From: Variovorax sp. RA8
GTDB taxonomy: Bacteria > Pseudomonadota > Gammaproteobacteria > Burkholderiales > Burkholderiaceae_C
NCBI RefSeq assembly: GCF_901827175.1
Contig: NZ_LR594662.1
Location: 3,720,001-3,784,000, forward strand
Direction of reading: 5' to 3'
DNA: 64,000 nt
Shown: positions 28,936 through 55,265 of the stretch, one piece after another
How the letters are laid out: each line of letters opens with the position of its first letter
Position numbering within the stretch: the stretch's first letter is position 1
Position numbers and translations under genes: made by a program
The notes under the pieces: generated by a model
The model's input: only the letters and a program-made list of their open reading frames with translations
What the model was told of the DNA's origin: nothing
Database searches by the model: none

Positions 28936-29729
28936 CGGGCTTCCAGGTAGAAATCGACCAGGCAGTCGCGCACCGCCTCGAACATGCCCATGCCGGTCAT
29001 CGTCGCCAGGCCGCGCGAGCGCGCGATCTCGATCAGCTGCGGGACCGCAGGCACGGTCACGACGTCGCCCACGAAGGCCGCGGGGTCGATCGCGGCCACA
29101 TCGACGGGTAGCGGGTCCGAGGCCTTCATGCCCATGGACGTCGCGTTGATCACGAGGTCGAAGCCCGACGGGTCGGCCGAGCCGATGCGCGGCTTCAACG
29201 CGCTGTAGGCCTCCAGCCTGGCCATCAGCGCGTCGCGCCGCGCCGCGTCGACGTCGTGCACCGCCAGCGCGTGCACGCCCGCATCGACGAGCGCATGCGC
29301 GATCGCGCAGCCCGCACCACCCGCGCCGACCAGCAAGGCGCGCCGCCCCGCCGGCTCGCAGCCGGCCTTGCGCAGGCCGACGACATAGCCTTCGCCATCG
29401 CACATGTCGCCGAACCAGCGGCCTTCGGCATCGCGGCGCACGACGTTGACCGCACCAATCGAGGCCGCGCGCGGCGTCACCGCGTGGCACAGGCGCGCGA
29501 TCTCAAACTTGTGCGGGATGGTGGCGATGACGCCGTCCACGTTCGGCATGCGGGCCACGGTGGCCATGAAGGCCGCCAGGTCCTGCGCCAGGACATGCGC
29601 CGGAACGACGATCGCATCGGCGCCCCGCTCGCGCAGCGTACGGGTGGCGAGTGCGGGAGCTTTCACCTGAGCGATCGGATCGCCGGCGATGAAGATGACA
29701 CGGGTGGCCCCGCTGTAGCTATCGATCAT
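28932..29729 (-). CDS. Shikimate dehydrogenase-like oxidoreductase (AroE family, atypical)
   Basis: 265 residues. AroE fold: catalytic lysine in ATIPHKFEI, NAD(P) loop LLVGAGGAGCAIAHAL, INATSMGM. The serines that bind shikimate in GxPxxxSxSP are replaced (AGDPIAQVKAPALAT), so the substrate is probably not shikimate and this is unlikely to be the biosynthetic AroE. An upstream ATG at 29741 would add four residues encoded by the operator palindrome at 29728-29742, so I chose the ATG at 29729. First gene of the dehydrogenase / acyl-CoA dehydrogenase / CoA-transferase / flavoprotein operon. Confidence 0.82.
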   Translation of the reverse strand: MIDSYSGATRVIFIAGDPIAQVKAPALATRTLRERGADAIVVPAHVLAQDLAAFMATVARMPNVDGVIATIPHKFEIARLCHAVTPRAASIGAVNVVRRDAEGRWFGDMCDGEGYVVGLRKAGCEPAGRRALLVGAGGAGCAIAHALVDAGVHALAVHDVDAARRDALMARLEAYSALKPRIGSADPSGFDLVINATSMGMKASDPLPVDVAAIDPAAFVGDVVTVPAVPQLIEIARSRGLATMTGMGMFEAVRDCLVDFYLEAR

Positions 29730-29742
29730 TGGACGGACCATA
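29728..29742. promoter_or_regulatory. Operator palindrome, site 1 (A-W-TGG-N5-CCA-W-W)
   Basis: attggacggaccata. The core TGG-N5-CCA is shared with seven other sites in the island. It abuts the start codon of the AroE-like gene and could control the minus-strand operon, and perhaps the divergent oxidoreductase gene 63 bases away. Shape fits GntR/FadR-type operators. Confidence 0.75.
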
Positions 29743-29760
29743 TCAGTGTTTCTTCGAAAT

Positions 29761-29793
29761 TGGAACTATGTTCTATTTTTGAATTACGTTCCA
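29761..29793. promoter_or_regulatory. Inverted repeat in the divergent promoter, IclR-type operator candidate
   Basis: TGGAACTATGTTC (29761-29773) and GAATTACGTTCCA (29781-29793) form an imperfect dyad (outer TGGAAC/GTTCCA and inner TTC/GAA match) around the T-rich spacer TATTTTT. Spacing and AT-rich centre suit IclR-family operators, and an IclR gene lies in the adjacent plus-strand transcript. CATAAT follows directly (29792-29797). Assignment to that regulator is inferred. Confidence 0.6.
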
Positions 29794-29804
29794 TAATAAA
29801 CCCC

Positions 29805-30848
29805 ATGACCTCAGCACCCACCCGCATGCCCGTGGCCGTCATCGGCGCGGGGGCCATCGGCCGCATGCACGTCGAGCGCCTGCTGGGCCATCCCGAGGTC
29901 GCGCCTGCCGCCATCGCCGATCCCACGCCTGCCGCCCGCGACTACGCGGCGGGCATCGGCGTGCCCTGGTTCGCCGACCATCGCGAGTTGCTCGATCGCA
30001 CGCGGCCGGGCGCCGTCATCGTGGCCACGCCCAACAGCACGCATGCCGAGGTCGGCATCGCCTGCATCGAGCGGCGGCTGCCGGTGTTGATGGAGAAACC
30101 CGTCGCCGACACCGTGGCGCAGGGCCAGCGCCTGTGCGATGCCGCGGCGGCTGCCGGCGTGCCGCTCCTGGTGGGCCACCAGCGCAGGCACAACCCCATC
30201 CTGCGCCATGCGCGCAAGCTGCTCGCGGACGGCATCGTCGGCAAGCCGGTGAGCGTGACGGCGATGGCCACCTGGCTCAAGCCCGATTCGTACTTCGAGC
30301 TGGCCTGGCGCCGGCAGGCGGGCGGCGGCCCGGTGCTGATCAACCTGATCCACGACATCGACCTGCTGCGCTTCCTCATCGGCGAGGTCGATTCGGTGCA
30401 GGCGATGGCCTCGAATGCGGTGCGCGGCTACGAGGTCGAGGACACCGCCGCCGTACTGATGCGCTTCGCCTGCGGCGCGCTCGCGACGCTGGCGGTATCG
30501 GACGCCGCCGTCGCGCCGTGGAACTGGGACCTGGCCGCGGGCGAGGCCGCCCACTACGCCCAGCTCGACGTCAACTCGCACTACATCAGCGGCACCGAGG
30601 GATCGCTCGCGCTGCCGCGCCTGGAAGTCTGGCGCTACGCGGGAACACGCGGCTGGCATGAGCCCTTGACCTGCTCGCGCACGCCGGTGCATCGCGGCGA
30701 CCCCTACGTCGAGCAGTTGCGGCACCTGCGCGCTGTCGCGGAAGGAAGGGAGGCGCCGGTGTGCTCCGGCGCGGACGGGCTGCGCACCCTGCAGGCCGCG
30801 CTGGCGGTGCAGGAGGCGGTGCGCTCGCAGCGGCCCGTCGGCGTGTGA
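29805..30848 (+). CDS. Gfo/Idh/MocA family NAD(P)-dependent oxidoreductase
   Basis: 347 residues. N-terminal Rossmann domain (VAVIGAGAIGRMHVERLLGH), the family EKP motif in VLMEKPVADT (catalytic Lys region), and an alpha/beta C-terminal domain (GGGPVLINLIHDIDLLRFLI, which holds the conserved His/Asp). It probably oxidises or reduces an alcohol/ketone on a ring or sugar-like substrate. Followed 28 bases later by the IclR regulator, divergent from the AroE-like operon. Confidence 0.87.
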   Translation: MTSAPTRMPVAVIGAGAIGRMHVERLLGHPEVAPAAIADPTPAARDYAAGIGVPWFADHRELLDRTRPGAVIVATPNSTHAEVGIACIERRLPVLMEKPVADTVAQGQRLCDAAAAAGVPLLVGHQRRHNPILRHARKLLADGIVGKPVSVTAMATWLKPDSYFELAWRRQAGGGPVLINLIHDIDLLRFLIGEVDSVQAMASNAVRGYEVEDTAAVLMRFACGALATLAVSDAAVAPWNWDLAAGEAAHYAQLDVNSHYISGTEGSLALPRLEVWRYAGTRGWHEPLTCSRTPVHRGDPYVEQLRHLRAVAEGREAPVCSGADGLRTLQAALAVQEAVRSQRPVGV

Positions 30849-30876
30849 AGATCCGCCCTTTTCAAGGAAGTTGTGC

Positions 30877-31701
30877 ATGAGCGGCGTGATGGAGCGAACC
30901 CTGGCGATCCTCGAACGGCTTGCGACCGATGTCGGCGGCGTGTCCATCGCGGTGCTGGCCGACGAACTCGGCATGCCGCGCAGCGCGGCGCACCGGCTGC
31001 TCGGCGAACTGGCGGACCACGGCTACGTGCGCCAGTCGCGCAAGCGTGGCGACTACGTGCTCACCACCAAGCTGGTGTCGCTGGGCCTGAACTACCTCAA
31101 GCACTCCGGCGTGGTCGACCTGTGCCAGCCCGTGCTCGATCGGCTCGCCGAATCGAGCGGCGAACTGGTGCGCCTCGGCGTGGTCGACGTCGACCACCTC
31201 ACCTGGGTCGCGCTGTCGCAGGGCGCGCGCAGCGGGCTGCGCTACGACCCCGACATGGGCATCGACGCGCAGCTTTCCTGCACCGCCAGCGGCTTCGCCT
31301 GGCTATCCACCCTGGAGGAGGACGACGCGATTGCGCTCGTCGCCAGGCAGGGTATCGGCAGGCCCGAGCGCTTCGGCCCCAACGCCCCGACCTCGATGAA
31401 CGCGGTCATGAAGGCGGTGCGCCAGGCGGGCAGGCAGGGCTTCGCGATTGCCTCTGAATCGTATGCGCGCGGGCTGTCGGCGATCTCGGCACCCATCGTG
31501 CGGACGGGCGCGGACGCCGGCGCCGTGGGCGTGATCGCGATCTCCGGACCTTCCGCGCGCTTGACGGACCAGAAGATGCGGGGCCTGGTGCCCGACCTTC
31601 TCGCAGCGGCCGCCGACATCGCGGCGGCCAGCAAGGCATCGCCGCTCTTCGACCGCGCCCATGCCTCCTCGTCGGACGAGGCCGCGCTGGATCCTGCATG
31701 A
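30877..31701 (+). CDS. IclR-family transcriptional regulator
   Basis: 274 residues. Winged helix at about 5-65 (MERTLAILERLATDVGGVSI; ELGMPRSAAHRLLGELADHG) and the IclR effector domain (LSCTASGFAWLSTLEEDDAI). AAGGAAG precedes the ATG. Likely controls the divergent promoter region 29741-29804 through the dyad there; IclR proteins often regulate ring-compound catabolism. It is not the expected binder of the eight TGG-N5-CCA sites. Confidence 0.9.
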   Translation: MSGVMERTLAILERLATDVGGVSIAVLADELGMPRSAAHRLLGELADHGYVRQSRKRGDYVLTTKLVSLGLNYLKHSGVVDLCQPVLDRLAESSGELVRLGVVDVDHLTWVALSQGARSGLRYDPDMGIDAQLSCTASGFAWLSTLEEDDAIALVARQGIGRPERFGPNAPTSMNAVMKAVRQAGRQGFAIASESYARGLSAISAPIVRTGADAGAVGVIAISGPSARLTDQKMRGLVPDLLAAAADIAAASKASPLFDRAHASSSDEAALDPA

Positions 31702-31742: not shown

Positions 31743-33242
31743 TCAACCAAATCGACCCTGTGCCGCGAAGCGCCCGGCGCGCCGTCCGGAAGTCACCGCC
31801 CAGCAAATGTGATGGCCGTTGCCGGCCAGGAGCGCCCCGCCCTGCCCCACGGCGCCGGCGGCATAGAGCCTGGGGATCACGGCCCCTTCTTCATCGAGCA
31901 CCTGGTGGAAGCCATTGACCGCCAGCCCTCCGTCGGTGATGACGATGCGGCTCTCCAGCGGCCCCAGCGCATGGAACGGCGCTTGTGCCAACGCTCCCCG
32001 GCCCGCCGCCGCGCCGGCAGCGCCCGCGGCCAGATCCGCGTTGTGCTGCTCGACCGTGGCTCGAAGCGCATCGGGCCGCATGCCCAGGCTGCGGGCCAGG
32101 GCGCCAAGGTCGCCAGCCCGGTGATAGAGATCCTTGCGATGCCGCCGGTAGTCCGGCAGGTAGGCGAAGGCCACGCCCGGTGCGGTCGAGACGTAGTGCG
32201 GCGGCTTCGAGAACATCTGCGCCACGCGGTCGTCGAACACGAGCCATGCCTGTCCGCCGGGCTGTTGCGCGATCGCCAGGCCGGGTTGCGCCAGCTCGTC
32301 CGTGAAGCGCCTTCCTTCGGCGTTGACGAGCACGGCACCGGCGCGCAGGAGCGATGCTTCGGGCCCCAGCGACGCCGTCATGAAGGCCATCACGAAGGGC
32401 CGGAAGAGCGCGATCGGAAGATGGTTCAACGACAGCTGCATCAACTTGCCCAGCAGCCAAGAGGGCGGCAGGCGGCGCACCAGGCTCGGCCGCGCGGGCT
32501 CCGCGAAGCGAAGCCCCGGCCCATAGATGACTTCGCCGTTGACCAGCCGCGCGCCGAAGGCCTCGGCCATCTGGTGCCCGTCGCCGGTCGCTGTCGGATT
32601 CACGCCAGGGATGCCGGCCAGTTCGGGACGAAAGCGCTGCTTGAGATCGCGGCCGTTGCTGTAGTCTCCGGCGGCGAGAACCACACCCTTGCGCGCCTCG
32701 ATCTCCACCGTCTCGCCGTCCACCAGTGCGGACACGCCGCGCACGCCCCCGTCGTCCGCGCGCAGCAGCCGGAGCACGCGCGTGCCGAGCCGCAGGTCGA
32801 CACCCCGGCGCCTTGCCTCGCGGCCCAGGTAGTAGGGGTAGGCGCGCGAATTCGGCAGCACGTTGTGCATGCGCGGATGGCGGTGCGGCGGATCCCCCGT
32901 CGGGCCGTAGAAGCTGAGGCCGAGCGACATCAGCCAATCGAGCGTGCCCGCCGCGTTGTCGACCAGCAGACGGCGCAGCGCCAGGTTCTCACGCGAGGCG
33001 AATGCACCCACGTAGTGGTCCATGTCCTCGAAATGCTCGTCGGGCGTGTCGACGATGCCGGCGCGCCTCTGCAGGCTCGAACCGGCGGCATTGATCGATC
33101 CGACCGACAGGCGGCTGCTGCCGCCCGGCTGCGCGTTCTTCTCGAGCACCACCGTCTTCGCGCCGGCCGCCGCTGCCTCGATGCCGGCACTGAGCCCCGA
33201 CGCACCGCCGCCGACGACTACGACATCGAAGGCCAGCTTCAC
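31743..33242 (-). CDS. FAD-dependent oxidoreductase, fumarate reductase flavoprotein type
   Basis: 499 residues from a GTG start overlapping the preceding stop (GTGA). FAD motif FDVVVVGGGASGLSAGIEAA at the N-terminus; a histidine-rich block GDPPHRHPRMHNVLPNSRAY; C-terminal FAD site RLYAAGAVGQGGALLAGNG. It differs from the other two flavoproteins of the island (no YPGxG motif) and is closer to soluble FrdA-like reductases. Possibly reduces or oxidises a C=C bond of a carboxylate. Third gene of the cupin / binding-protein / flavoprotein operon. Confidence 0.82.
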   Translation of the reverse strand: MKLAFDVVVVGGGASGLSAGIEAAAAGAKTVVLEKNAQPGGSSRLSVGSINAAGSSLQRRAGIVDTPDEHFEDMDHYVGAFASRENLALRRLLVDNAAGTLDWLMSLGLSFYGPTGDPPHRHPRMHNVLPNSRAYPYYLGREARRRGVDLRLGTRVLRLLRADDGGVRGVSALVDGETVEIEARKGVVLAAGDYSNGRDLKQRFRPELAGIPGVNPTATGDGHQMAEAFGARLVNGEVIYGPGLRFAEPARPSLVRRLPPSWLLGKLMQLSLNHLPIALFRPFVMAFMTASLGPEASLLRAGAVLVNAEGRRFTDELAQPGLAIAQQPGGQAWLVFDDRVAQMFSKPPHYVSTAPGVAFAYLPDYRRHRKDLYHRAGDLGALARSLGMRPDALRATVEQHNADLAAGAAGAAAGRGALAQAPFHALGPLESRIVITDGGLAVNGFHQVLDEEGAVIPRLYAAGAVGQGGALLAGNGHHICWAVTSGRRAGRFAAQGRFG

Positions 33243-34210
33243 TCGGCGGTGATTCCGGTCTTGTTGATCAGGTCGGCCCAGCGGGCGGACTCGTCGCGAA
33301 CCATCCTGGCGTAGGCCGCGGGCGAACTGCTTTCCGCCGTGGCGCCGACGCCGGCGTACTTTTCCTTGATCTCGGGCATCGCCAACACTTGCGCCAGCGC
33401 GGCATTGAGTTTGGAGACGACCGCCGGCGGCGTGCCCTTGGGTGCGAAGAGGCCGAACCAGACTTCGGCCGTGAAGCCGGGCACGGTGTCCGATATCTGC
33501 TTGACGCCCGGCATCAGAGGTGCGGGCTTGCCCGACGCGACCGCCAGCAACTTCAGCTTGCCCTCCTTGACCGCCCCCATGATCGAGGGCGACGGCGTCG
33601 TGATCAGCGCCTTCACCTCGCCGGTGCGCAGCGCCAGGCTCATCGGCGCCTCGCCCTTGTAGGGCACGTGGTTCATCTTCACGCCGGTGGCCTGCGAGAA
33701 CATGGCTGTGGCCATATGGCCGAAGGATGCGTTCCCGGCCGACCCGTAGTCGAGCCCGTCCGGCTGGGCCTTGGCATAGTCGATGAAGCCGCGCACGTCC
33801 TTGGCCGGGACCGACTCGTTGACCACCAGCACCATCGGGGAGGTGGAGACGACCGAGACCGGCACGAAGTCCTTCATCGGGTCGTAGCCTGCCCGCTTGT
33901 TGACCAGCGGGGTGATCACGAAGCCATTGTTGACGAACACCAGCGTGTACCCGTCGGGCGGCGAAGCCGCCGCCGCCTGGGTGCCGATACCGGCGGAGGC
34001 GCCGGGCCGGTTGTCCACGATGATCGGCTGGCCGAGCAGCTTGCCGAGCGGCTCCGAGATCGCGCGAACCTGGAAGTCCGAGAGGCCGCCGGCCGGATAC
34101 GGCACGATGATCTTGATGGGCTTGTTGGGATAGTCCGCCTGCGCGAACGCCGGCACGACGGTGACGGCCGCGGCGGCGAACGCCAGGAGAGCGCGTCGAA
34201 AGTTTTTCAT
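33239..34210 (-). CDS. Tripartite tricarboxylate transporter substrate-binding protein (Bug family)
   Basis: 323 residues. Signal peptide (FRRALLAFAAAAVTVVPAFA), then the Bug fold: YPNKPIKIIVPYPAGGLSDF, RPGASAGIGTQAAAASPPDG, FVNNGFVITP. These periplasmic proteins bind small carboxylates and normally serve a TctA/TctB permease, absent here. An upstream start at 34297 is rejected because the signal peptide begins at the ATG at 34210. Between the cupin and flavoprotein genes. Confidence 0.9.
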   Translation of the reverse strand: MKNFRRALLAFAAAAVTVVPAFAQADYPNKPIKIIVPYPAGGLSDFQVRAISEPLGKLLGQPIIVDNRPGASAGIGTQAAAASPPDGYTLVFVNNGFVITPLVNKRAGYDPMKDFVPVSVVSTSPMVLVVNESVPAKDVRGFIDYAKAQPDGLDYGSAGNASFGHMATAMFSQATGVKMNHVPYKGEAPMSLALRTGEVKALITTPSPSIMGAVKEGKLKLLAVASGKPAPLMPGVKQISDTVPGFTAEVWFGLFAPKGTPPAVVSKLNAALAQVLAMPEIKEKYAGVGATAESSSPAAYARMVRDESARWADLINKTGITAE

Positions 34211-34297
34211 GGGGATGTCTCTTTCCAGGAATGAACAACAGATGGCGGATTTCACTGTGCTGCAGCGCTGGCGCAGGTCTTCGCAGCGGTAGCGCAT

Positions 34298-34699
34298 CTA
34301 CTTGAGCTCCTTGCCCGCGTGGTCGCCCTCGAGGAACTTGTTCGGCTTCAGGAAGAAGGACAGCACGAGCGCCCCCTTTGGCGAACGCGCGAGGTGGCGG
34401 TTGCCCTTGGGACGCCAGACGAAGCCGCCCTCGCGCACTTCGCCCTCGTCGTCGACGATGCTGCCCTTGAGCACGTAGGTCTGCTCGATCTCGACGTGCT
34501 CGTGCAGCGGCAGCTGGGTGCCGGGCGCCCAGCGGAACAGTGCCGTGAGCAGGCCGCTCGCCTCGTCCTGCATCAGGACCTTCATGTCGATGCCGGGCGT
34601 CAGCGTCGGCTTCCAGGGAATGCTCGCGACATCGACATAGCGCGAGGCGTCTTCGGCGAGCTTCTCGTGCTGCGGATGAAAGGGGGTGGACGCGGTCAT
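34298..34699 (-). CDS. Cupin-domain protein (ChrR-like)
   Basis: 133 residues, one cupin barrel. Motif 1 LPLHEHVEIEQTYVLKGSIV has the metal-binding His-x-His and Glu; motif 2 lies around GGFVWRPKGNRHLA. Might be an isomerase, dioxygenase or sensor; sequence alone does not decide. An ATG at 34711 is an alternative start. The promoter -10 and operator site 2 lie just upstream, so the leader is very short. Confidence 0.8.
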   Translation of the reverse strand: MTASTPFHPQHEKLAEDASRYVDVASIPWKPTLTPGIDMKVLMQDEASGLLTALFRWAPGTQLPLHEHVEIEQTYVLKGSIVDDEGEVREGGFVWRPKGNRHLARSPKGALVLSFFLKPNKFLEGDHAGKELK

Positions 34700-34715: not shown

Positions 34716-34733
34716 AATGGTCTTACCATTATA
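34716..34733 (-). promoter_or_regulatory. Operator palindrome, site 2, overlapping a -10 box
   Basis: aatggtcttaccatt at 34716-34730. On the minus strand the -10 hexamer TATAAT occupies 34728-34733, so the palindrome runs from the -10 over the likely transcription start of the cupin operon. This is a classical repression position. Confidence 0.78.
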
Positions 34734-34834: not shown

Positions 34835-34849
34835 AATGGATTTACCATT
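34835..34849 (+). promoter_or_regulatory. Operator palindrome, site 3
   Basis: aatggatttaccatt, 52 bases before the ATG at 34901. With site 2 it brackets the divergent control region 34712-34900, which has no gene. The flanks carry ACACCCC (34755-34761) and GGGGTGT (34792-34798) as an extra inverted repeat. Confidence 0.75.
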
Positions 34850-34900: not shown

Positions 34901-35746
34901 ATGACCTCCAGCCCCGCTCCCCGAATCGTTCGCAGGCCCCAGGGGCGCGTCCTCATCTTCGACTCGGCCACCTACGTCGAGGGCTACGTCGCCCAGGCGC
35001 CCGAAACTGCCGGCGACCTGGTGGTGAACGCCTCCTACTCCGGCGTGCTGTGCGCGCGCATGGTGATGGCAGCCAGGCCCCATGCCGTGATCGGGCTGGA
35101 CTGCGCCGTCGGCAAGGACGGCGCCGGCATCGCCGGCCTCTGGTACTACGAAGCGCTGGGCATCCCGTCCGCCGCCGTGGACGTGATGACCGCCGAGATG
35201 GGCAACGGCTCCGACCTCTACGACAACGGCATCGTGAGCCGCGTCAACGATGCGGCGCAGGCGCTGGGCATCGAGCCGGGCATGCGCGCCCGCGATGCCG
35301 CGCAATACCTTCTCTCCGGCGAGAAGAAACCGGCGGTGTTCGAGCCGACGCGCCGGCGCCTGATCCACACCGCGGCGAACGGACGCAGCATCGTGTGCAC
35401 CGACTCCATCGCCTATGCCCTGCCCGAGGACAGGGAGCGCAACGTGCTGTGCACCGCCGGACACACCGGGCGCAGCGTGGTGGGCTACTTCCGCGACTAC
35501 CGGCCCTGGGCCTTCATCTGCTCGGACGGCGGCATCGGCAAGAACAACTCCGGCCTGAGCGCGCTGGAAGCCGTCGAGCCCGACGGCATCCCCGGCGCCT
35601 CGGTCAGCGCCCTCAGCGCCCGCATGGGCGACGGCCAGAGCACCTACTTCGACGGTGTCATCAGTGCCGCCAACAAGCTCGCCCGCGACAAGGGCGTGCA
35701 GGTCGGCCAGAGCGCGAAGGAAGCCGCCTTGCTCCTCCTGAGTTGA
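34901..35746 (+). CDS. Uncharacterised conserved protein of the island
   Basis: 281 residues, cytoplasmic, no signal or membrane segment. I do not recognise a named domain. Noticeable blocks: LIFDSATYVEGYVAQAPETA, VIGLDCAVGKDGAGIAGLWY, AVDVMTAEMGNGSDLYDNGI, FICSDGGIGKNNSGLSAL. The two Gly-rich GKDGAGIAG and GIGKNNSG loops suggest a small-ligand or phosphate site. It is the first gene after operator site 3 and precedes a membrane transporter, so it may be an enzyme or partner of the same pathway. Confidence 0.7.
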   Translation: MTSSPAPRIVRRPQGRVLIFDSATYVEGYVAQAPETAGDLVVNASYSGVLCARMVMAARPHAVIGLDCAVGKDGAGIAGLWYYEALGIPSAAVDVMTAEMGNGSDLYDNGIVSRVNDAAQALGIEPGMRARDAAQYLLSGEKKPAVFEPTRRRLIHTAANGRSIVCTDSIAYALPEDRERNVLCTAGHTGRSVVGYFRDYRPWAFICSDGGIGKNNSGLSALEAVEPDGIPGASVSALSARMGDGQSTYFDGVISAANKLARDKGVQVGQSAKEAALLLLS

Positions 35747-35754
35747 CTGCGCCC

Positions 35755-35811
35755 ATGAGCCGCACGGCCGTTCCGAAGGCGAATAGCACCGCAGCCGAAG
35801 GTACTCCAGTG
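35755..35811 (+). repeat. Dispersed repeat at a gene start, copy 1
   Basis: This stretch starts ATGAGCCGCACGGCCGTTCC and ends with GAAGG-N7-GTG. Its first 47 bases differ from copy 2 (49837-49897, minus strand) at about two positions. It encodes the odd N-terminus SRTAVPKANSTAAEGTP of the transporter. I recall the same peptide-like string at many places in Variovorax genomes, so it is probably an intergenic repeat. Confidence 0.8.
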
Positions 35812-37392: not shown

Positions 37393-37848
37393 TTACACGC
37401 AGCGCCACTGCAGCAGCGTGAAGGGCGGGCTTGCCTGGGGATGGTGTTCGAACACGCCTTCGACCTCCGCGCCGATGACGACCTCGGCCATCGGGTCGCC
37501 CAGCAGGTTGCCCAGCATGCGCACGCCGGGAGCGTCGCGCAGTTCGACCACGACGACCAGATAGGGGCCGTGCCCGTTCAGGCAGGCGTGCACCGGATGC
37601 CAGGCGCGCTCCCAGCTGAAGATCCGCGCGCGCGGCGCCACAGGCTCGAACGGCGGATCGAAGGCGTGGCAGCCATGGCAGATCCACTCGGGGCCATGCT
37701 GGAAAGTACCGCAGGCCCGGCAGTGCTGGACCATCACCCGGTTCTCGCGCAGGCCGCTCCAGAACGGCGCGGACAGGCCGTCCGCCTCCGGCACCGGGAT
37801 CGGCAGTCCGGCCGGCAGGTACGCTTCGTTCGTCGTGCTGGGGTTCAC
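37393..37848 (-). CDS. DUF35 zinc-ribbon/OB-fold protein
   Basis: 151 residues from a GTG start overlapping the thiolase stop (GTGA). Zinc ribbon Cys43-x2-Cys46 and Cys57-x2-Cys60 (HCRACGTFQHGPEWICHGC), then an OB fold (YLVVVVELRDAPGVRMLGNL). DUF35 proteins bind acyl-CoA and form complexes with thiolase-fold partners (for example ChsH2 with Ltp2, or HMG-CoA synthase/thiolase complexes). Pairing with the gene just upstream strongly suggests the same here. Confidence 0.9.
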   Translation of the reverse strand: MNPSTTNEAYLPAGLPIPVPEADGLSAPFWSGLRENRVMVQHCRACGTFQHGPEWICHGCHAFDPPFEPVAPRARIFSWERAWHPVHACLNGHGPYLVVVVELRDAPGVRMLGNLLGDPMAEVVIGAEVEGVFEHHPQASPPFTLLQWRCV

Positions 37849-44066: not shown

Positions 44067-44098
44067 GTTCGTCTCCTGAGTACGTGGCAAATGAGATT

Positions 44099-47525: not shown

Positions 47526-47540
47526 ATTGGCCCAACCATT
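47526..47540 (-). promoter_or_regulatory. Operator palindrome, site 5
   Basis: attggcccaaccatt, just upstream of livH. On the minus strand TTGCAG (47543-47548) could be a -35, with TGATAG about 17 bases on, so the palindrome would lie between the boxes. Confidence 0.75.
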
Positions 47541-47596: not shown

Positions 47597-48565
47597 TCAC
47601 TCAGGCGACAGGTTGGCCTCGCGCATGACGCGCGTCCAGATCTGCTGGTCGTTGCGGATCAGTTCGCCGAAGGCGGCGGCATTGCCGGGCTGCGGCGTCA
47701 TGCCCAGGCCCTTGAGCTTCTCCTGCATGGCCGTCTCGGCCACCGCCATGTTCACGGCCTCGTTGAGCCGCGCCACGATCTCCGCCGGCGTGCCCGCCGG
47801 TGCCGCCAGGCCGAACCAGGCCATCACGCTGAAACCGGGCAGCGACTCGGCGATGGCGGGCACCTTCGGCAGCAGTGGGCTGCGCTTGGGCGAGGACACG
47901 CCCAGCATGCGCAGCTTGCCGCTGCCCACGAAGGCATTGATCGCATCGGAGGGCGTGGTGATCACCACCTTGACGTCACCCGCCAGCACCGCATTGGTGG
48001 CCTGCGACGAGCCCTGGTAGGGAACATAGACCATCTTCAGCCCGGCCATCTGGTTGAAGAGCTCGTTCGCGAGATGCCCCAGCGAGCCGCGGCCGGCGGA
48101 CGCGTACTCGAGCTCGCCCGGCCGCGCCTTGGCATACGCGATGAGCTCGGCGATGCTCCTGGCGGGGATCACCGGGTTGAGCAGGAAGACCATCGGCGTG
48201 GTCGCGATGTTCGCCACGGGCGCGAGATCCTTGATGGCGTCGTAGCCGGCCGTCTTCTGCATCAGCGACGTGGTGACGGTGCTGTTGCCCACCTGCAGCA
48301 GCGTGTACCCGTCGGGCGCAGCGTTCTTGACATACTGCGTGCCCATCGTGCCGCTGGCGCCCAGCCGGTTGTCGATGACGATGGGCTGGCCGAGCAGGCG
48401 CTGCAGCGGCTCCTGCAGGTTGCGGCACAGCACGTCACCCGTGCCGCCGGCCGCAAAGGGCACGACGATGCGGATCGGCTTGTTCGGGAAGCCCTGCGCA
48501 CGGGCCATGCCGTACGGCAGACTGGCGAGGGCAGCGGCGCCCATGAGGTGGCGGCGTGAAATCAT
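47597..48565 (-). CDS. Tripartite tricarboxylate transporter substrate-binding protein (Bug family)
   Basis: 322 residues. Signal peptide (ISRRHLMGAAALASLPYGMA), then FPNKPIRIVVPFAAGGTGDV, RLGASGTMGTQYVKNAAPDG, and AWFGLAAPAGTPAEIVARLN, all Bug-family hallmarks. No TctA/TctB genes in the window. It has its own promoter with operator site 6, so it is probably a single-gene unit; 85 bases separate it from livH. Confidence 0.92.
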   Translation of the reverse strand: MISRRHLMGAAALASLPYGMARAQGFPNKPIRIVVPFAAGGTGDVLCRNLQEPLQRLLGQPIVIDNRLGASGTMGTQYVKNAAPDGYTLLQVGNSTVTTSLMQKTAGYDAIKDLAPVANIATTPMVFLLNPVIPARSIAELIAYAKARPGELEYASAGRGSLGHLANELFNQMAGLKMVYVPYQGSSQATNAVLAGDVKVVITTPSDAINAFVGSGKLRMLGVSSPKRSPLLPKVPAIAESLPGFSVMAWFGLAAPAGTPAEIVARLNEAVNMAVAETAMQEKLKGLGMTPQPGNAAAFGELIRNDQQIWTRVMREANLSPE

Positions 48566-48617: not shown

Positions 48618-48657
48618 ATTGGTCCGACCATTATGCCTAAAGAAGGACGTACGTCAA
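48618..48657 (-). promoter_or_regulatory. Sigma-70 promoter with operator palindrome, site 6
   Basis: Minus-strand -35 TTGACG (48652-48657), 16-bp spacer, -10 CATAAT (48630-48635). The palindrome attggtccgaccatt (48618-48632) begins inside the -10 and covers the expected start of transcription. It is the most symmetric of the eight sites (TGGTC-C-GACCA) and the best evidence that the palindrome is a repressor site. Confidence 0.82.
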
Positions 48658-48691: not shown

Positions 48692-49897
48692 TCAGCTCAC
48701 GACGCCGGCGGCGGCGAGCCCGTCGATCTCTGTCCGCTCCAGGCCCCAGCCTGCCAGCGCCGCGTGCAGATCGATGCCAGGCTCCACCCCCGCGGCAGGC
48801 AACGCGGCCGGCGTTCGCGAGAAGCGCGGCGCCGGCGCCGGCTGCACCATGCCGTCGACCTCCACGAAGGTGCCGCGCGCGCGGTTGTGCGGATGCGCGG
48901 CGGCCTCCTCCATGCTCAGGACGGGCGCGAAGCACGTCTCGCTGGTCTCGAGCTGCGCGCACCACTCGTCGCGCGTGCGCGTGCGGAACACGTCGGCCAG
49001 CTGCGCACGGATGGCCGGCCAGTTGGCCGTGTCGGCGCGATCGGGCAGGCCCGCGTTCTCGAGCCCCATCTGGCGCAGCAACTCGGCGTAGAACTTCGGC
49101 TCGGCCGAGCCGATGCTGATGTACTTGCCGTCGCGCGTCTCGTACACGGCGTAGAACGGCGAGCCGCCCCCGGTCACGCTGCGCCCCCTCCCCGGCCACG
49201 CACCGCCCGCGCGATGGCCGAAGAAGTAGGTCATGAGCGAGGCCGCGCCATCGACCATGGCCGCATCGACGACCTGGCCCTTGCCGGAGCGCGCGGCTTC
49301 GATCAGCGCGCAGGCCATGCCGAAGGCGAGGTACATGCCGCCGCCGCCGAAGTCGCCGACCAGGTTGAGCGGCACCACCGGCGGGCCATCCGCTTCGCCG
49401 ATCGCCTCCAGCGCGCCCGACAGTGCGATGTAGTTGATGTCGTGCCCGGGGGCCATGGCCATCGGGCCTTCCTGGCCCCAGCCCGTCATCCGGCCGTAGA
49501 CCAGCTTCGGATTGAGTGCCAGGCAGGGCTCGGGGCCCAGTCCCAGCCGCTCCATCACGCCCGGGCGGAAGCCCTCGATCAAGGCATCCGCGCCTGCGAC
49601 GAGGCGCTTGACCAGCGCAACGCCCCCGGTCGACTTGAGGTCCACGGCGATCGAGCGGCGGTTGCGGTCGGTGAAGTAGAAGCGCTGCGCCATTGCGCGC
49701 GGCGCCGGATCGGGCCGATCGACGCGCAGCACCGTCGCGCCCATGTCGGCGAGCATCATGGCGGCGAACGGGCCGGGTGCAAGCCCGGCCATCTCGACGA
49801 CCCTGAGGCCGCCCAGGGGCCCGGTGGCGCGGCTCACTGGCGCACCTTTGCCTTCGGCTGCGGTGCTGTTCGCGTTCGGAACGGCCGTGCGGCTCAT
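48692..49897 (-). CDS. CaiB/BaiF family III CoA-transferase or alpha-methylacyl-CoA racemase
   Basis: 401 residues from ATG 49897, or 381 from the GTG at 49837 where family similarity begins (GGLRVVEMAGLAPGPFAAMM). The first 20 codons come from a dispersed repeat. DLKSTGGVALVKRLVAGADA, GHDINYIALSGAL (with the conserved Asp) and GGSPFYAVYETRDGKYISIG fit the racemase branch (AMACR) of the family. Racemases flip 2-methyl-branched acyl-CoA esters, which occur in isoprenoid and steroid side chains. Last gene of the operon starting at 55097. Confidence 0.87.
   Translation of the reverse strand: MSRTAVPNANSTAAEGKGAPVSRATGPLGGLRVVEMAGLAPGPFAAMMLADMGATVLRVDRPDPAPRAMAQRFYFTDRNRRSIAVDLKSTGGVALVKRLVAGADALIEGFRPGVMERLGLGPEPCLALNPKLVYGRMTGWGQEGPMAMAPGHDINYIALSGALEAIGEADGPPVVPLNLVGDFGGGGMYLAFGMACALIEAARSGKGQVVDAAMVDGAASLMTYFFGHRAGGAWPGRGRSVTGGGSPFYAVYETRDGKYISIGSAEPKFYAELLRQMGLENAGLPDRADTANWPAIRAQLADVFRTRTRDEWCAQLETSETCFAPVLSMEEAAAHPHNRARGTFVEVDGMVQPAPAPRFSRTPAALPAAGVEPGIDLHAALAGWGLERTEIDGLAAAGVVS
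49837..49897 (-). repeat. Dispersed repeat at a gene start, copy 2
   Basis: Minus strand; near-identical to 35755-35811 over 47 bases, with a 6-base longer end (GGCAAAGGTGCGCCA before GTG). Here it forms the first 20 codons of the CoA-transferase frame. In both copies AAGG lies about 7 bases before a GTG, so the repeat itself supplies a ribosome site. Confidence 0.8.
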
Positions 49898-49911
49898 CGT
49901 TCGCTCCCGCC

Positions 49912-51669
49912 TCAGGCAGTGGTCATCGACGGCCGTGCCTCCGCGGCGGCCTCCGACGCGCCGTGCCCGGCCATGAACTCGGCCGCCACGAAGCCGAAGG
50001 TCATCGCCGGCCCGAGGGTGATGCCGCCTCCGGGATAGCCGCCGCCCATGACGCTCGCGTTGTCGTTGCCGGCCGCGAACAGCCCGGGCACCGGCCGGCC
50101 CTCGCCGTCGAGCACGCGTGCGAATCGGTCGGTCCTGATGCCGGCGAAAGTGCCCAGGTCGCCCATGACGACCTTGACCGCATAGAACGGGCCGTCCTTC
50201 ACCGGCGCGACGCAGGGGTTGGGCCGATGGGTCTTGTCGCCGAGGAAGCGGTTGTAGACACGCCAGCCGCGGCGGAACTGGAGGTCCTTGCCTTCCTCCG
50301 CGCCGAGGTTGTAGTCGGTCACCGTCTTCTGCAGCGCCGCGCCATCGATGCCGGCCAGGGCGGCGAGCTCGCCGAGCGTCTTTCCGCGCAGCAGGTAGCC
50401 CGAGCGAAGGTGGCCCCCGAGCGGCAGCGGGAACGGCTTGGCGAAGCCGAGTCCGTAGCGGCGGATGGTGCGGTGATCGGCGATCAGCCATGCGGCGACC
50501 TCGATCCCGTCGGCGCAGTGCTTCTGCATCGCCATGCCCATGTCGTGGTACGAGTCGGACTCGTTGGTGAAGCGCCGCCCCTCGCGGTTGACGGCGATGA
50601 TGCCGGGCTTGTAGCGGTCGATCAGGTGCGGGAAGACACCGGCTTCGCCATTGGCGCGCCGCACCTTCGACACCGGAATCCATGCTGCCGCGTTCGGCAG
50701 CTTCGCGCTGACCTGGCCGCCCACCGACTCGGCCAGGCGCAGGCCGTCGCCGGTATTGCCGGGCGGTGCGGGCGACAGGTGCTCGCGGCCGGTCGGCGCA
50801 TGCGGAAACAGCTTCTTCCTGCGCTCGACATCCTGCGGGAAACCGCCCGCCGCCAGCACCACGCCGCGCCGCGCGCCGACGCGCACGCTGCTGCCGTCGG
50901 CCTTGCCCACGACGACGCCACTGATGCGTCCGCCATCGCGCACGAGCGCCCGGGCTGGCGACTCGAGCCACATCGGGATGCCGAGATCGAAGGCCGACTT
51001 GGCCAGCCGCGCCGTCAGCGCATTGCCATTGGTCAGCCGCATCGCGCGGCCGTGGAAGATCATCTCTATCGCATGCGTCATGAGCCGCTTCGCGACGTAG
51101 GCCGCCGACTTGAACGACCGCGTGGCGTTGAAGAAGTGCCCGACCTCGGCGCTCGAGTTGAACATCATGCCCACGAAGGTGATCTCCTTGAGCGGAGGCC
51201 GCAGCGATCGGATGTGTTCGCCGAGCTCGCGCCCATCGAGCGGCGCGGCCATGATCGAGCGCCCGGCCATGCGCCCGCCGGGACTCTCGGCGTGATAGTC
51301 AGGGTACTCGGGCAGCGCGATCAGCTTCACCTCGGTCTGGCGCACGAAGAAATCGACCATGCGCGGCCCGTTGGCGAGGAAGGCCTCCACGCGCTCGCTG
51401 TCGTAGAAATCGCCGCATTCGTACTTCAGGTAGGTCCGTGCGTCGTCCATCGAATCGGGCTCGGGCTTGAAGGTGGAGATCGGATTGTTCGGGATCCACA
51501 GCACGCCGCCGGAGCGCGCGGTCGTGCCGCCGTACAGCGGTTCCTTCTCGAGCAGCAGCACCTCGAGTCCCATCTTGCGTGCGGCCACGGCGGCCGCCAT
51601 GCCGCCGGCCCCGGTGCCGATCACCACCACGTCGACCGTCTGGTCGAAGCCGTCGCCGGCCGTCTTCAT
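49912..51669 (-). CDS. FAD-dependent oxidoreductase, 3-ketosteroid delta-1-dehydrogenase type
   Basis: 585 residues. FAD motif VDVVVIGTGAGGMAAAVAAR; active-site-like block NREGRRFTNESDSYHDMGMA; C-terminal AAGNDNASVMGGGYPGGGIT plus LGPAMTFGF, close to ketosteroid dehydrogenases with the Tyr-Pro-Gly-x-Gly motif kept. A paralogue of the protein at 24442 by layout and C-terminal motifs. Probably desaturates an alicyclic ketone or its CoA derivative; substrate unknown. Four-base overlap with the EthD-like gene. Confidence 0.86.
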   Translation of the reverse strand: MKTAGDGFDQTVDVVVIGTGAGGMAAAVAARKMGLEVLLLEKEPLYGGTTARSGGVLWIPNNPISTFKPEPDSMDDARTYLKYECGDFYDSERVEAFLANGPRMVDFFVRQTEVKLIALPEYPDYHAESPGGRMAGRSIMAAPLDGRELGEHIRSLRPPLKEITFVGMMFNSSAEVGHFFNATRSFKSAAYVAKRLMTHAIEMIFHGRAMRLTNGNALTARLAKSAFDLGIPMWLESPARALVRDGGRISGVVVGKADGSSVRVGARRGVVLAAGGFPQDVERRKKLFPHAPTGREHLSPAPPGNTGDGLRLAESVGGQVSAKLPNAAAWIPVSKVRRANGEAGVFPHLIDRYKPGIIAVNREGRRFTNESDSYHDMGMAMQKHCADGIEVAAWLIADHRTIRRYGLGFAKPFPLPLGGHLRSGYLLRGKTLGELAALAGIDGAALQKTVTDYNLGAEEGKDLQFRRGWRVYNRFLGDKTHRPNPCVAPVKDGPFYAVKVVMGDLGTFAGIRTDRFARVLDGEGRPVPGLFAAGNDNASVMGGGYPGGGITLGPAMTFGFVAAEFMAGHGASEAAAEARPSMTTA

Positions 51670-52373
51670 CGGACTACCCTGCCCTCGACCAGCATGGTGC
51701 TCACCCGCGCATTGAGCTCGCGTCCGTCGTCCTTGAGCGGCAGGCGCGCATCGGATGCGTAGCTCGTGTTCATCGCCGCCTCATCGGCGAAGCAAACCTC
51801 TGCGATGCCGTCGATCGGCAGGCTTTCGTGGTCGACCGGCCGCCCGGCGGCGTCGTAGCGCGCCGTCACGAGGTTCTGCACGTAGCCGTCGAGCAGCGGC
51901 AGATGCCTGACCAGGCTGGCATGGCGGCCGAACCACGCCTCGCGGAAATCCTCCCGCGTGGCGGCCTTGCGCGTCAGCAGCAGCCAGCGGCGGAACCCGC
52001 CGTCCACGGCGCCATTGCGCAACGGCACGGGCACGTTCGGCTCGCTGTCCAGTGCGAAGAGCACTCGGGCGACACCCTGCATGTCCTTCATCAGCGCCGC
52101 CCATGCGGGCGATTCGACAGCCCGCCGGGCGGCTGCGGCATCGGCGAAATGCAGATCCACGGACACATCGATGTCATCCGCCTGCGCCACCGCGCCGCCG
52201 TAAGGCCTGTCGTTCTCGATGTAGTCCGTCGGCACATGGCGCACAACGCGGTTCACCTGCGCCTGCTGCAGGCCGGGCAACTCGCGCAACGCCTGTGCGG
52301 CCATCCGCTCGAGTGCATCCGCGGCGGCGGAAGCCGGTTGCGAGGCAGCCAGGCAAAGCGTCTTGATGAGCAT
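51666..52373 (-). CDS. EthD-like dimeric alpha/beta-barrel protein
   Basis: 235 residues (one more from the ATG at 52376). Two ferredoxin-like halves: KTLCLAASQPASAAADALER at the start, and RWLLLTRKAATREDFREAWF plus GRHASLVRHLP in the second, the EthD pattern. These proteins are often small ring-modifying enzymes or accessory proteins in degradation operons. AAGGA lies 5 bases before the chosen ATG. 38 bases after the SDR gene. Confidence 0.75.
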   Translation of the reverse strand: MLIKTLCLAASQPASAAADALERMAAQALRELPGLQQAQVNRVVRHVPTDYIENDRPYGGAVAQADDIDVSVDLHFADAAAARRAVESPAWAALMKDMQGVARVLFALDSEPNVPVPLRNGAVDGGFRRWLLLTRKAATREDFREAWFGRHASLVRHLPLLDGYVQNLVTARYDAAGRPVDHESLPIDGIAEVCFADEAAMNTSYASDARLPLKDDGRELNARVSTMLVEGRVVR

Positions 52374-52411
52374 CATGGTCCTTCGTCTTGGATCTAGCGC
52401 CGGCCCGCGGC

Positions 52412-53194
52412 TCAGGCAAACATTGCCGGCTGCACATTCATCAGCGCCGTGCGCATGAAGCCGCCGTCGATGATGATGTCCTGCCCGTTCATGTAGGAAG
52501 CGGCGTCGCTCACGAGAAAGGCCACCGCGTCCGCGATGTCGTCGGGCCGGCCGATGCGGCGCGCCGGCACCACCTTGATCCGGCCCTGGTGCAGCTTCTC
52601 GTTCCGATAGAAATCCTCGGTCATCGGCGTGCGGATCATGCCCGGGCTGACCGAGTTGGCGCGAATGCCGCGCGGCCCCCACTCCACGGCCATCTGGTGG
52701 GTAAGGCCGAGCACGCCGGCCTTGCTCGGGCCGTAGGGGCCGATGTCGTTCGGGACGCGCGCGCCGATCGAGGCGAGATTGACGATCGCGCCCGAGCCCT
52801 GCGCGAGCATCATGCGCGCGAGGTGCTTGGCGCACAGGAAGGAGCCGCGCAGGTTCACGCTCATCACCCGGTCCCACACCTCGGCGGGCAGTTCCTCCAG
52901 CGGAATGACGGGCGCCATGATGCCGGCGTTGTTCACCAGGATGTCGCAGCGGCCGAATGCGGCCTTGACCGCATCCGCCATGGCTTCGATCGCCGCCTCG
53001 TCGGTGATGTCGCAGGCCAGCGAGAGCGCGGCGAGCGGATTCCCGGGCGCCTCCAGGTCGACGGCCGCCACGCGCGCGCCCATCGCCGCGAGCCGCGCGA
53101 CCATCGCGCCGCCAAGCCCGCCGCCTGCGCCCGTGATCACCGCGACGCGCCCCCGGAGGGCATCCGCACCGAAAGTCGTCTGCGGCTGGCTCAT
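52412..53194 (-). CDS. Short-chain dehydrogenase/reductase (SDR)
   Basis: 260 residues. TGAGGGLGGAMVARL cofactor loop, ILVNNAGIMAP, serine in NLASIGARV, catalytic YGPSKAG. Not closely similar to the SDR pair at 40-42 kb. Overlaps the TIM-barrel gene by ATGA. Acts on an alcohol/ketone of the pathway; substrate unknown. Confidence 0.93.
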   Translation of the reverse strand: MSQPQTTFGADALRGRVAVITGAGGGLGGAMVARLAAMGARVAAVDLEAPGNPLAALSLACDITDEAAIEAMADAVKAAFGRCDILVNNAGIMAPVIPLEELPAEVWDRVMSVNLRGSFLCAKHLARMMLAQGSGAIVNLASIGARVPNDIGPYGPSKAGVLGLTHQMAVEWGPRGIRANSVSPGMIRTPMTEDFYRNEKLHQGRIKVVPARRIGRPDDIADAVAFLVSDAASYMNGQDIIIDGGFMRTALMNVQPAMFA

Positions 53195-54042
53195 CGTTCG
53201 TACTCCATGGCGGTGGGAAAGTGGCGGTCGAAGAATCGTCGCGCCGCCTCGGCGGCATGGCGTGCACGCGCGGCAGGCGACAGCCCGGCGTGCGCGACCA
53301 CCGGCGTCTCCAGCTCGAGCTCCGCGTCGGCCGGCAGCGCATTCACCACGGACGCCAGGTCGAGCCCGCCGTCTCCCAGGACCATGCGCCCCGACATCGC
53401 CTCGTCGAACAGCGTGCTGCCGGCAGCCAGTTGCGCGGGCGCATCGCTGAGCTGCGTGAGGTAGATGGTCGCGGGGTCCAGCGCGGCGACATCTGCGGCC
53501 GTGGCGCCGGAGCGTGCGAGGTGCAGCGTGTCGATCAGGAGCCCGGCATTGGCCGCGCCGCTGGCCGCGATGACCGCCTGCGCCTGCCCAATGGTCTTCA
53601 GTTCGCTCATCGGCATGAACTCGAGCGCGATCCGGATGCCCGCATCGGCAGCGGCGGCCGCGTAGTCGCGCAGCAGCGATGCGACGCGCGCGTGATCCGC
53701 CTCGAAGCAGCCCTGCAGGATCATCGGCGCGCCCACGGCCCTGGCCGCCTCGACGTTCGCCATCAGGTGCGCGGGGCGCACCTGCGGCGAGAGGTAGTAG
53801 CCGCTGATGCTCGAGATGCGAACGCCCTTCTCGGCAGCGGCCGCGCGGATCCTCGCGAATGCCGAAGGGTCGGCATCGACCGACGGCCAGGCATCGCCGG
53901 GATAGCGCCCGCTCACGCGCGGCCCGGCCGCGCCGTAGCCGGCCTGTGCGGCGGCGTCGATGGTGTCCAGCGGCGCTGCCTTCGCGCCCAGCGTCAGGAA
54001 GCCCAGCGTCAGGTTGGCCGTCTTGCGGTGCCGTGCATTCAT
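53191..54042 (-). CDS. Sugar phosphate isomerase/epimerase family TIM-barrel protein
   Basis: 283 residues of the AP-endonuclease-2-like TIM barrel (PF01261). Metal-site blocks: IALEFMPMSELKTIGQAQAV, GLLIDTLHLARSG, TIYLTQLSDA, and ELETPVVAHAG near the end. Such proteins isomerise or epimerise hydroxy-ketones, and some cleave ring or inositol derivatives. ATG overlaps the stop of the enone reductase gene. Confidence 0.82.
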   Translation of the reverse strand: MNARHRKTANLTLGFLTLGAKAAPLDTIDAAAQAGYGAAGPRVSGRYPGDAWPSVDADPSAFARIRAAAAEKGVRISSISGYYLSPQVRPAHLMANVEAARAVGAPMILQGCFEADHARVASLLRDYAAAAADAGIRIALEFMPMSELKTIGQAQAVIAASGAANAGLLIDTLHLARSGATAADVAALDPATIYLTQLSDAPAQLAAGSTLFDEAMSGRMVLGDGGLDLASVVNALPADAELELETPVVAHAGLSPAARARHAAEAARRFFDRHFPTAMEYER

Positions 54043-55097
54043 TGGGGGATCACCTTGTGCTCCTGCAGTTCGCGCAGACGCTGCACGAACACGCGGTCGG
54101 TCTCGATGCATGCATGAAATCCGGCGCGGCGGATCTTGCCGGTCTCGAGCACGACGTCGTGCGACATCCGCAGCATGTAGTCGACCCAGGCCCAGTTGAC
54201 GATCGTCGCGATGTCGATGCTGCGCAGGCCCTGCCGCTGCGCGATTCGATCCCACACGGCCTGCTGGTCGGGCATCACGTCGGCAAGCGGCATGGTCTTG
54301 GGCTCCGCCGCTTCCATGCCCAGGCTCGCAGCGACCACCGGCCAGGTATTGCGCCAGCGCGCGGGGTCGCCGTTGGCGACGTTGAAGGCCTGGTTGGCCG
54401 CCGCGTCGGCCGTCGCGGCCCAGCTCGCAGCCGCGCCGATCTGCTGGGCATCGGCGATCTGGTGCAATGCATCGTAGGCGCCCGCGCTGCCTGGAAAGCG
54501 CAGCGGCAGCCCCAGCTCCTTGCAGAGAGCGGCGTAGATGCCGACCCCCAGCACCAGGTTCATCGGGTTGCCGACCGCGAAGCCGGAGACGAAAGGCGGA
54601 ATGAGGTTGACCCACGACCATGCCTGCCCGCGCTGCGCCTGGCGCAGGAAGTCTTCCTGGTCGTAGTAGAAATTGGGCGGCAGTTGCCGCGCATCGCTCT
54701 CGCGGCACGGCGTGGAGACGGCGCCCCACTGGATACCGTAGAACTTGGCACCCGTGACCAGAACGATCTTCCGCAGGCCCGGTGCCGCGGTGCTCGCGGC
54801 GTCCACCACGTTGCGCAGCATGCCCAGGTTGGGCGCCACCTCGGCCGCCCGGCCGGGCGCCTGCTGGTAGGCCGCGTAGAAGACGTGGCTGATCCCCTCG
54901 TGCCGCGCGAAGGCCTTGCGGCATGCCTGCGCATCCATCAGGTCCACGGCGATGCCCTCGGTCCCGGGGATGCCACCTCCTCCCGAACGCGAAGCGCACA
55001 ACACGCGCCAACCGTCGGCCACGAGCCGCTGTGCGATGCCCGTGCCCACGATCCCGCTGGCTCCGGCGACCAGCGCGACGGGTTGATTGGATTGCAA
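54039..55097 (-). CDS. PRISE-type SDR (progesterone 5-beta-reductase/iridoid synthase-like enone reductase)
   Basis: 352 residues from a TTG start with GGAGAG upstream. Rossmann loop VAGASGIVGTGIAQRL (10-25). The catalytic lysine lies in VLVTGAKFYG (Lys118) and the tyrosine in LPPNFYYDQEDFL (Tyr144/145), followed by the family stretch NPMNLVLGVGIYAALCKELG and LPLRFPG. This matches PRISE enzymes, which reduce the C=C of activated enones with NADPH. First gene of a six-gene operon ending with the CoA-transferase; operator site 7 lies just upstream. Confidence 0.88.
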   Translation of the reverse strand: MQSNQPVALVAGASGIVGTGIAQRLVADGWRVLCASRSGGGGIPGTEGIAVDLMDAQACRKAFARHEGISHVFYAAYQQAPGRAAEVAPNLGMLRNVVDAASTAAPGLRKIVLVTGAKFYGIQWGAVSTPCRESDARQLPPNFYYDQEDFLRQAQRGQAWSWVNLIPPFVSGFAVGNPMNLVLGVGIYAALCKELGLPLRFPGSAGAYDALHQIADAQQIGAAASWAATADAAANQAFNVANGDPARWRNTWPVVAASLGMEAAEPKTMPLADVMPDQQAVWDRIAQRQGLRSIDIATIVNWAWVDYMLRMSHDVVLETGKIRRAGFHACIETDRVFVQRLRELQEHKVIPQ

Positions 55098-55121
55098 GGA
55101 ACTCTCCGATTGATCAACTGG

Positions 55122-55136
55122 AATGGTTATACCATT
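55122..55136. promoter_or_regulatory. Operator palindrome, site 7
   Basis: aatggttataccatt, 25 bases upstream of the TTG start at 55097. On the minus strand TATAAC lies inside it and may be the -10. It serves the enone reductase operon. The rest of the 55098-55301 gap holds no gene. Confidence 0.76.
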
Positions 55137-55250
55137 TTAATCATCAGATCACGACCAGGAGCATCGCGCAAAGTCAATGCAGCAGGCGTCGAAGACGCTT
55201 CCCGCTGGCAGCAGCCTTCTTGGCATTCGGGTAAATAAGAGGATCTATCC

Positions 55251-55265
55251 ATTGGTCCGTCCATT
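55251..55265. promoter_or_regulatory. Operator palindrome, site 8
   Basis: attggtccgtccatt, 36 bases upstream of the ATG at 55302. TTGGTC in its left half could act as a -35. Together with site 7 it places both sides of this divergent gap under the same regulator. Confidence 0.76.

Follow-up and report, generated by a model that had tools for sequence, protein, structure and literature searches.

A palindrome common to two distant gene islands of Variovorax sp. RA8 and the GntR-FCD regulators that probably bind it

How is a large and uncharacterised set of degradation genes held under common control when its members do not even lie together in the genome? The question is raised by a 64-kb stretch of Variovorax sp. 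RA8 (C1:3720001-3784000, here called the window, in a genome of 7.42 Mb; short coordinates below are positions in it), where eight copies of a palindrome with the core TGG-N5-CCA lie among the genes of a catabolic island running from 24.4 to 56.3 kb. A sequence-only reading of the window took the palindromes for operators of one GntR/FCD-type repressor encoded elsewhere. We argue that they are very probably the operators of a small FadR-subfamily (GntR-FCD) clade of four regulators, R1-R4, encoded outside the window, which would repress both this island and a second one, 1.9 million bases away, until a metabolite released them.

The operator and regulator types are already known (they are PdhR/FadR-like), and the arrangement is of an ordinary kind, if unusually clearly delimited. 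Three features are less ordinary: the regulon is divided between islands that lie far apart, a single operator goes with several paralogues, and, least ordinary of all, the regulators' sensor domain also occurs on an enzyme. The gene set can be given an operator, a boundary and a family of regulators, so that its substrate can be sought by way of whatever releases R1-R4 from DNA. One operator continues to mark the set even though some relatives have its genes interleaved and here they lie 1.9 Mb apart. Nothing in the open-access papers searched, judged from their listings, seems to describe this regulon in Variovorax; the available part of a paper on aromatic regulons of Betaproteobacteria mentions GntR once, for AphS (PMC6449761).

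The palindrome in the window, the genome and relatives

The pattern AWTGGNNNNNCCAWW matches exactly eight places in the window (15 matches for 8 places, because both strands were counted), all of them where the sequence-only reading had put them, and its estimate of less than one chance match was sound, 100 dinucleotide-preserving shuffles giving a mean of 0.31 and a maximum of 2. The looser WTGGNNNNNCCAW finds the same eight places with a mean of 2.16 expected (8 was reached by 1 of 100 shuffles), and there is no ninth place in the 64 kb, either by the 15-mer or by a matrix score of at least 8. Genome-wide there are 30 exact 15-mer places: the 8 of the window, 10 in the second island and 12 elsewhere, nine of which (all but the three on contigs C2/C3) were scored, three lying inside called genes and six outside. 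A symmetric matrix built from the 18 exact island sites gives all 18 at least 19 and all nine scored outside-island places less than 16; it was trained on the very sites it scores, and tests on other genomes therefore count for more. The strict form AWTGGTNNNACCAWT occurs at 10 places in the genome, all within the two islands, and its reversed-pattern control at 0. A random frequency across the genome would have told against operators, and the motif does not show one; the islands hold 18 of the 30 exact places and 10 of the 10 strict ones.

Strict sites make up 3 of 8 in the window, 7 of 10 in the second island and 10 of the 18 together. Two non-strict island sites keep TGGT-N3-ACCA with one outer base off, and the remaining six, five of them in the window, deviate at the fourth base of one arm. 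The second island (C1:5.676-5.730 Mb, with sites spanning C1:5676643-5729974) adds to its 10 exact sites two inexact ones, at 5727473 (matrix score 20.9) and 5697595 (16.4).

Placement is equally plain. Genes in the window and the second island were called with a codon-usage script of our own making, not a published gene finder, and by these calls no window site lies within a gene, as the sequence-only reading had said; the site at 29728 overlaps the start of 28932-29729. Its further claim was that each stands next to a start codon or on a promoter; the nearest start is -2 to 73 bp away for seven sites, and 165 and 174 bp off for 55122. Within 20 kb (29-40 and 47-56 kb) there are three promoter-like matches, in numbers (2 and 1) not far above the 0.7 and 0.6 of shuffles, and every one of them overlaps a palindrome: one, on the + strand, overlaps the site at 34716, another has its -35 overlapped by the site at 39055, and the third has its -10 overlapped by 3 bases of the site at 48618.

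Are the sites kept where the sequence around them is not? At three of them, aligned with hand-picked sequences (for 47526 every one of the five relatives, for 39055 five of the six, without L152, and for 34835 six, without L172), all six arm positions (TGG, CCA) are kept and the flanks diverge. Invariant columns number 6 of 6 in the arms, 2 of 5 in the spacer and 3 of 90 in the flanks at 34835 (7 sequences); 15 of 15 in the site and 10 of 90 in the flanks at 39055 (6 sequences); and 6 of 6, 1 of 5 and 25 of 90 at 47526 (6 sequences), where a conserved flank is to be expected because it is the coding side. Among 80 relative loci, the 10 with an orthologue at 78% or more hold 41 matrix sites (at least 19) in 217 kb, as against 5 in 1322 kb for the 70 loci that are more distant. 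A further 40 stretches, selected for holding sites, come from 10 other positive genomes (the positive genome G020 was left out). Although 89% of the bases in them are coding, 129 of their 135 matrix sites scoring at least 16 lie outside called genes, and the other six overlap the 5' ends of called genes. The set of relative loci (80 loci, footprints) overlaps the set of genus genomes (co-occurrence, 40 stretches), and the two are not independent. As an observation further afield, Paraburkholderia xenovorans LB400 has a high-scoring site, AATGGTTTTACCATT (30.9, at L070:15738), near a 65% homologue of the query.

Regulators R1-R4 and the company they keep

What protein, then, would read these sites? 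The second island much resembles the window's in gene content (TctC receptors, CoA transferases, CoA ligases, acyl-CoA dehydrogenases, thiolases, a KstD-like FAD protein and a Rieske oxygenase), and it has in addition four GntR-FCD regulators. R1 (C1:5678676-5679434) comes fourth among the genes that follow the site at 5676643, and R2 (C1:5680837-5681595), R3 (C1:5685052-5685804) and R4 (C1:5699801-5700550) have sites 79, 45 and 42 bp upstream of their starts. That a regulator of this type lies outside the window, as the sequence-only reading proposed, is well supported. Its single regulator has given way to four paralogous candidates; the gene it hoped to find near the locus, with a site in its own promoter, exists three times over, 1.9 Mb away.

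R2, R3 and R4 are 42%, 59% and 33% identical to R1, and all four have the FadR-subfamily layout of an N-terminal GntR winged helix and a C-terminal FCD domain: R1, R2 and R3 lie above the Pfam cut-offs for both, and R4 lies above that for FCD, its helix-turn-helix (HTH) being recognised by alignment only. Arg is kept in all four at HTH positions 28 and 38 (Arg-35 and Arg-45 of FadR), as ER and S/G-R. The genome has 37 FCD matches, and in a tree of 36 of them (L045 had no usable frame; L041, L043 and L048 stand as R3, R1 and R2) R1-R4 group in a single clade with two flavin reductase-FCD fusions (100/99, with a bootstrap that had not settled).

The regulators and the sites travel together. Among 101 genomes of the genus, strict sites number 8-10 in 12, 1-3 in 16 and none in 73 (a count over 24 same-genus genomes gives 8-9 in 4), and orthologues of R2 (at least 74%) and of R3 (at least 77%) are found in exactly those same 12. 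In the other 89, a more distant R-clade gene (E 1e-40) is present in 15, of which 10 have a strict site, as against 6 of the 74 genomes with no R-clade gene. For the low-site genomes the comparison covers 11 of the 16 and 17 sites; in five of the 11 (G013, G068, G080, G081, G097) an R-clade match is preceded by a strict site no more than 200 bp upstream. Gene order says something similar. The genes and regulators of the two islands are partly interleaved in some relatives: unit D of the window (the units are described below) and R2 lie on either side of a common, sited, divergent gap, the one before 34901, in L145, L147, L163, L166 and L172, and unit G and R3 have a common sited gap in L152. 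In G007 and G114, as in RA8, the sited stretches fall at two places on the same contig, 1.3-1.5 Mb from each other.

The palindromes have the form TKGT-N3-ACMA, which the accessible text of one study gives as the FadR-subfamily operator, with Arg-35 and Arg-45 of FadR contacting G (PMC4494728), and this bears out the assignment to GntR/FCD-type operators. As far as that text goes, the subfamily (FadR, LldR, GlcC, DgoR) resembles the present system in operator form, in the two Arg and in its divergent single and double sites, where one site in the gap between two divergent operons usually acts on both; several paralogues that appear to have one operator in common are the difference. The Escherichia coli PdhR box, (A)ATTGGTnnnACCAAT(T), a 15-bp palindrome with a 3-nt centre in the part of the source available (PMC7660256), has the same form as the window palindrome, and the PdhR DNA-binding domain is R3's best PDB match (E 4.1e-15). 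The sites here differ in mostly having AAT on at least one arm, and the regulators differ in being four paralogues within a catabolic island, R2's best PDB match being another regulator (7c7e). PdhR controls pyruvate dehydrogenase genes and senses pyruvate; among the island proteins scanned, which took in part of the second-island genes, no pyruvate dehydrogenase domain was seen. For redundant GntR paralogues on one regulon there is precedent in GntR1 and GntR2 of Corynebacterium glutamicum, two regulators that are functionally equivalent according to the excerpt available (PMC2230225), although here there are four, with R2-R4 33-59% identical to R1.

The readings weighed

How might it work? 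We infer binding, repression, a ligand and the place of each paralogue as follows. A dimer of R1-R4 would bind the TGG-N5-CCA core, ideally as TGGT-N3-ACCA; covering or adjoining each unit's promoter, in one island as in the other, it would block that promoter; and a pathway metabolite, probably a carboxylate or a CoA thioester, would bind the FCD domain and free the DNA. Steric repression lifted by a pathway metabolite seems likeliest because R1-R4 keep both Arg and because the promoter-like matches, in numbers near those of shuffles, overlap palindromes. Since the second island carries both the regulators and the same palindromes, a single regulated degradation pathway seems to be divided between the two.

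Several facts pull the other way. Strict sites are absent from five of the 15 genus genomes in which the R-clade gene is a distant one. In 6 of the 11 low-site genomes no site has an R-clade gene within 200 bp, and four of these six (G042, G052, G057 and G065) lack such a gene altogether at E 1e-40. The alignment runs across one TGA for two R2 matches out of 12 (G020, G077), and the co-occurrence is not independent from genome to genome because the islands are inherited as blocks. Among 250 genomes of the family (three of them of the genus), 73 have a strict site, and of the 11 with an R3 relative 5 have one; more than four strict sites are found in no genome of that set outside the genus. The link between strict box and R clade thus does not hold beyond the genus, as one expects of a generic FadR-subfamily operator, and other members of the subfamily could bind it (for example, the PdhR-like GntR in L023). 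At home, 5 of the 8 window sites are non-strict, departing at the fourth base of one arm at 29728, 34835, 39055 and 47526 and of the other arm at 55251, and an inexact match with one core mismatch, AATGCTTCGACCAAT, reaches a score of 22.2 outside both islands, 15 kb before the window and 86 bp upstream of the start of a gene on the - strand.

Must all four regulators take part? One of them might control the window while the other three, with other operators or duties, were merely co-inherited, and this we hold to be a serious possibility, if somewhat short of an even chance. R2 would be the first candidate because unit D adjoins its promoter in the five relatives named above, and R2 has SRP ahead of the rest of its recognition helix, like PdhR; yet R3 and R4 also have the palindrome before their own genes, and unit G meets R3 across a sited gap in L152. 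It is unlikely, in our judgement, that R1-R4 are activators, or activators and repressors together, rather than simple repressors. Activators do exist in the FadR subfamily (fatty acid breakdown in E. coli is reported to be activated by PdhR, PMC7660256), and the two double sites, 34716/34835 and 55122/55251, permit more complex control, but the three promoter-like matches, though few enough to be near shuffles, all overlap a palindrome, and many sites lie less than 60 bp from a start codon, which suits repression.

With an operator consensus common to many FadR-subfamily regulators and 37 FCD matches in the genome, one may also suspect that the true binder is some other member of the subfamily encoded elsewhere. 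That is very improbable: the co-occurrence and the own-promoter sites point to R1-R4, and around other FCD genes no matrix score of 16 or more turned up in the 27 loci scanned, a set that does not include L176-L179 and the four such genes there. As for the palindromes being chance or a scattered repeat with no regulatory role, 12 of the 30 exact places are outside the islands and 3 of the 9 examined are inside genes, but the shuffle expectation, the confinement of every strict site to the islands, and arms conserved between diverged flanks leave this next to no probability; the stretches from relatives contradict it too, and we reject it. Probable repression of both islands by the R1-R4 clade is the reading we keep.

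Fusions, units and pathway clues

The sensor domain also appears on an enzyme. A gene at C1:5675665-5676624 (L050:15666-16625, - strand) encodes a flavin reductase fused to an FCD sensor domain (E 7e-15 for the FCD part), which is 47% identical over 141 residues to the FCD of its neighbour R2. This island-type fusion (at least 73%) is found in exactly the 12 of 101 genus genomes with many sites; weaker fusions (44-50%) outside the 12 bring the genomes with a fusion to 50 of 101. At E 1e-40 the class yields no orthologue in 184 further genomes. Of 1045 matching plasmid records three, all from Variovorax, cover at least 80% of the fusion, at 44-46% identity. A second fusion in RA8 (L178:1022-2002, - strand, near C1:3534.7-3535.7 kb) is 48% identical to the first; matches at 44-50% occur in genus genomes outside the 12, many of which have no R-clade regulators. 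The reductase half matches the p-hydroxyphenylacetate hydroxylase reductase C1 (PDB 5zc2, 315 aa), a flavin reductase of similar length. C1 is controlled by its ligand through a MarR-like C-terminal regulatory domain; the fusion has FCD there and thus does not belong to the C1 type. The open-access papers searched, judged from their listings, included nothing relevant on a flavin reductase-FCD fusion. We would suggest, tentatively and as rather less than likely, that one operator serves all four FCD sensors and that, with the same sensor domain placed on the reductase as well, one metabolite family controls the transcription of the split regulon and an enzyme's activity directly. The fusion would allow a direct test of whether regulators and enzymes share a sensor domain.

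Strand and gaps allow ten units (A-J) to be drawn between 24442 and 56297, and each is served by at least one site, as the sequence-only reading had it for the island's transcription units. Unit A (24442..29729, -) encodes a FAD_binding_2 dehydrogenase, a CoA transferase, an acyl-CoA dehydrogenase and a shikimate-dehydrogenase-like protein, and unit B (29826..31701, +) a Gfo/Idh/MocA oxidoreductase and an IclR regulator. The sequence-only reading had allowed this Gfo/Idh-IclR pair as a possible exception. It need not be one, because the predicted operator ATTGGACGGACCATA (29728..29742, non-strict) sits in its divergent gap, 83 bp before the first gene at 29826; relative L137 has a site at the same distances.

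Unit C (31743..34699, -), with a FAD_binding_2 protein, a TctC receptor and a ChrR cupin-like protein, has the predicted strict site AATGGTCTTACCATT (34716..34730) 16 bp before its 34298-34699, and the predicted non-strict AATGGATTTACCATT (34835..34849) lies 51 bp before 34901, where unit D begins (34901..37197, +; two genes with a 122-bp gap, whose products, 34901-35746 and 35869-37197, have no convincing Pfam or PDB relative). Between 37845-39026 (-) and 39112 (+), in the divergent gap of units E (37393..39026, -; ChsH2-like OB-fold protein, SCP2-type thiolase) and F (39112..42757, +; cyclase-like protein, SDR, amidohydrolase, SDR), is the predicted non-strict AATGGATGGACCAAT (39055..39069). 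Unit G (42840..47511, -) is a branched-chain-type ABC transporter with its binding protein, a 146-bp gap preceding the last gene; the predicted non-strict ATTGGCCCAACCATT (47526..47540) is 14 bp before 46645-47511.

A TctC receptor is the whole of unit H (47597..48544, -), and the predicted strict ATTGGTCCGACCATT (48618..48632) stands 73 bp before it. Unit I (48692..54947, -; inner gaps of 74 and 107 bp) encodes a CaiB-type CoA transferase, a KstD-like FAD dehydrogenase, EthD, SDR, TIM-barrel and PRISE-like proteins; the KstD-like protein (49912-51669) has its closest named homologue in Variovorax, at 94% (L056). The predicted strict AATGGTTATACCATT (55122..55136) lies between 54039-54947 (-) and 55302 (+), and the predicted non-strict ATTGGTCCGTCCATT (55251..55265) is 36 bp before 55302, the start of unit J (55302..56297, +), another TctC receptor; this pair of sites recurs in L056 and L158 (apparently one contig). 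Directly past the last sited unit, at 56333-57061, is an IclR regulator with no site of its own. The IclR genes (30877, 56333) were set aside as regulators of the palindrome on the motif's FadR-subfamily form alone.

What might all this degrade? KstD-like dehydrogenases, SCP2-type thiolases with ChsH2-like partners, CoA ligases and a Rieske protein suggest alicyclic or aromatic acids processed via CoA thioesters; an ibuprofen-type (ipf) pathway is no more than a tentative lead. At the edge of the second island is a Rieske oxygenase gene (C1:5730022-5731338; L053:10023-11339), followed by a Fer2/NAD reductase gene; the oxygenase matches PDB 7fhr, a solved putative phthalate 4,5-dioxygenase, at E 6.6e-195.

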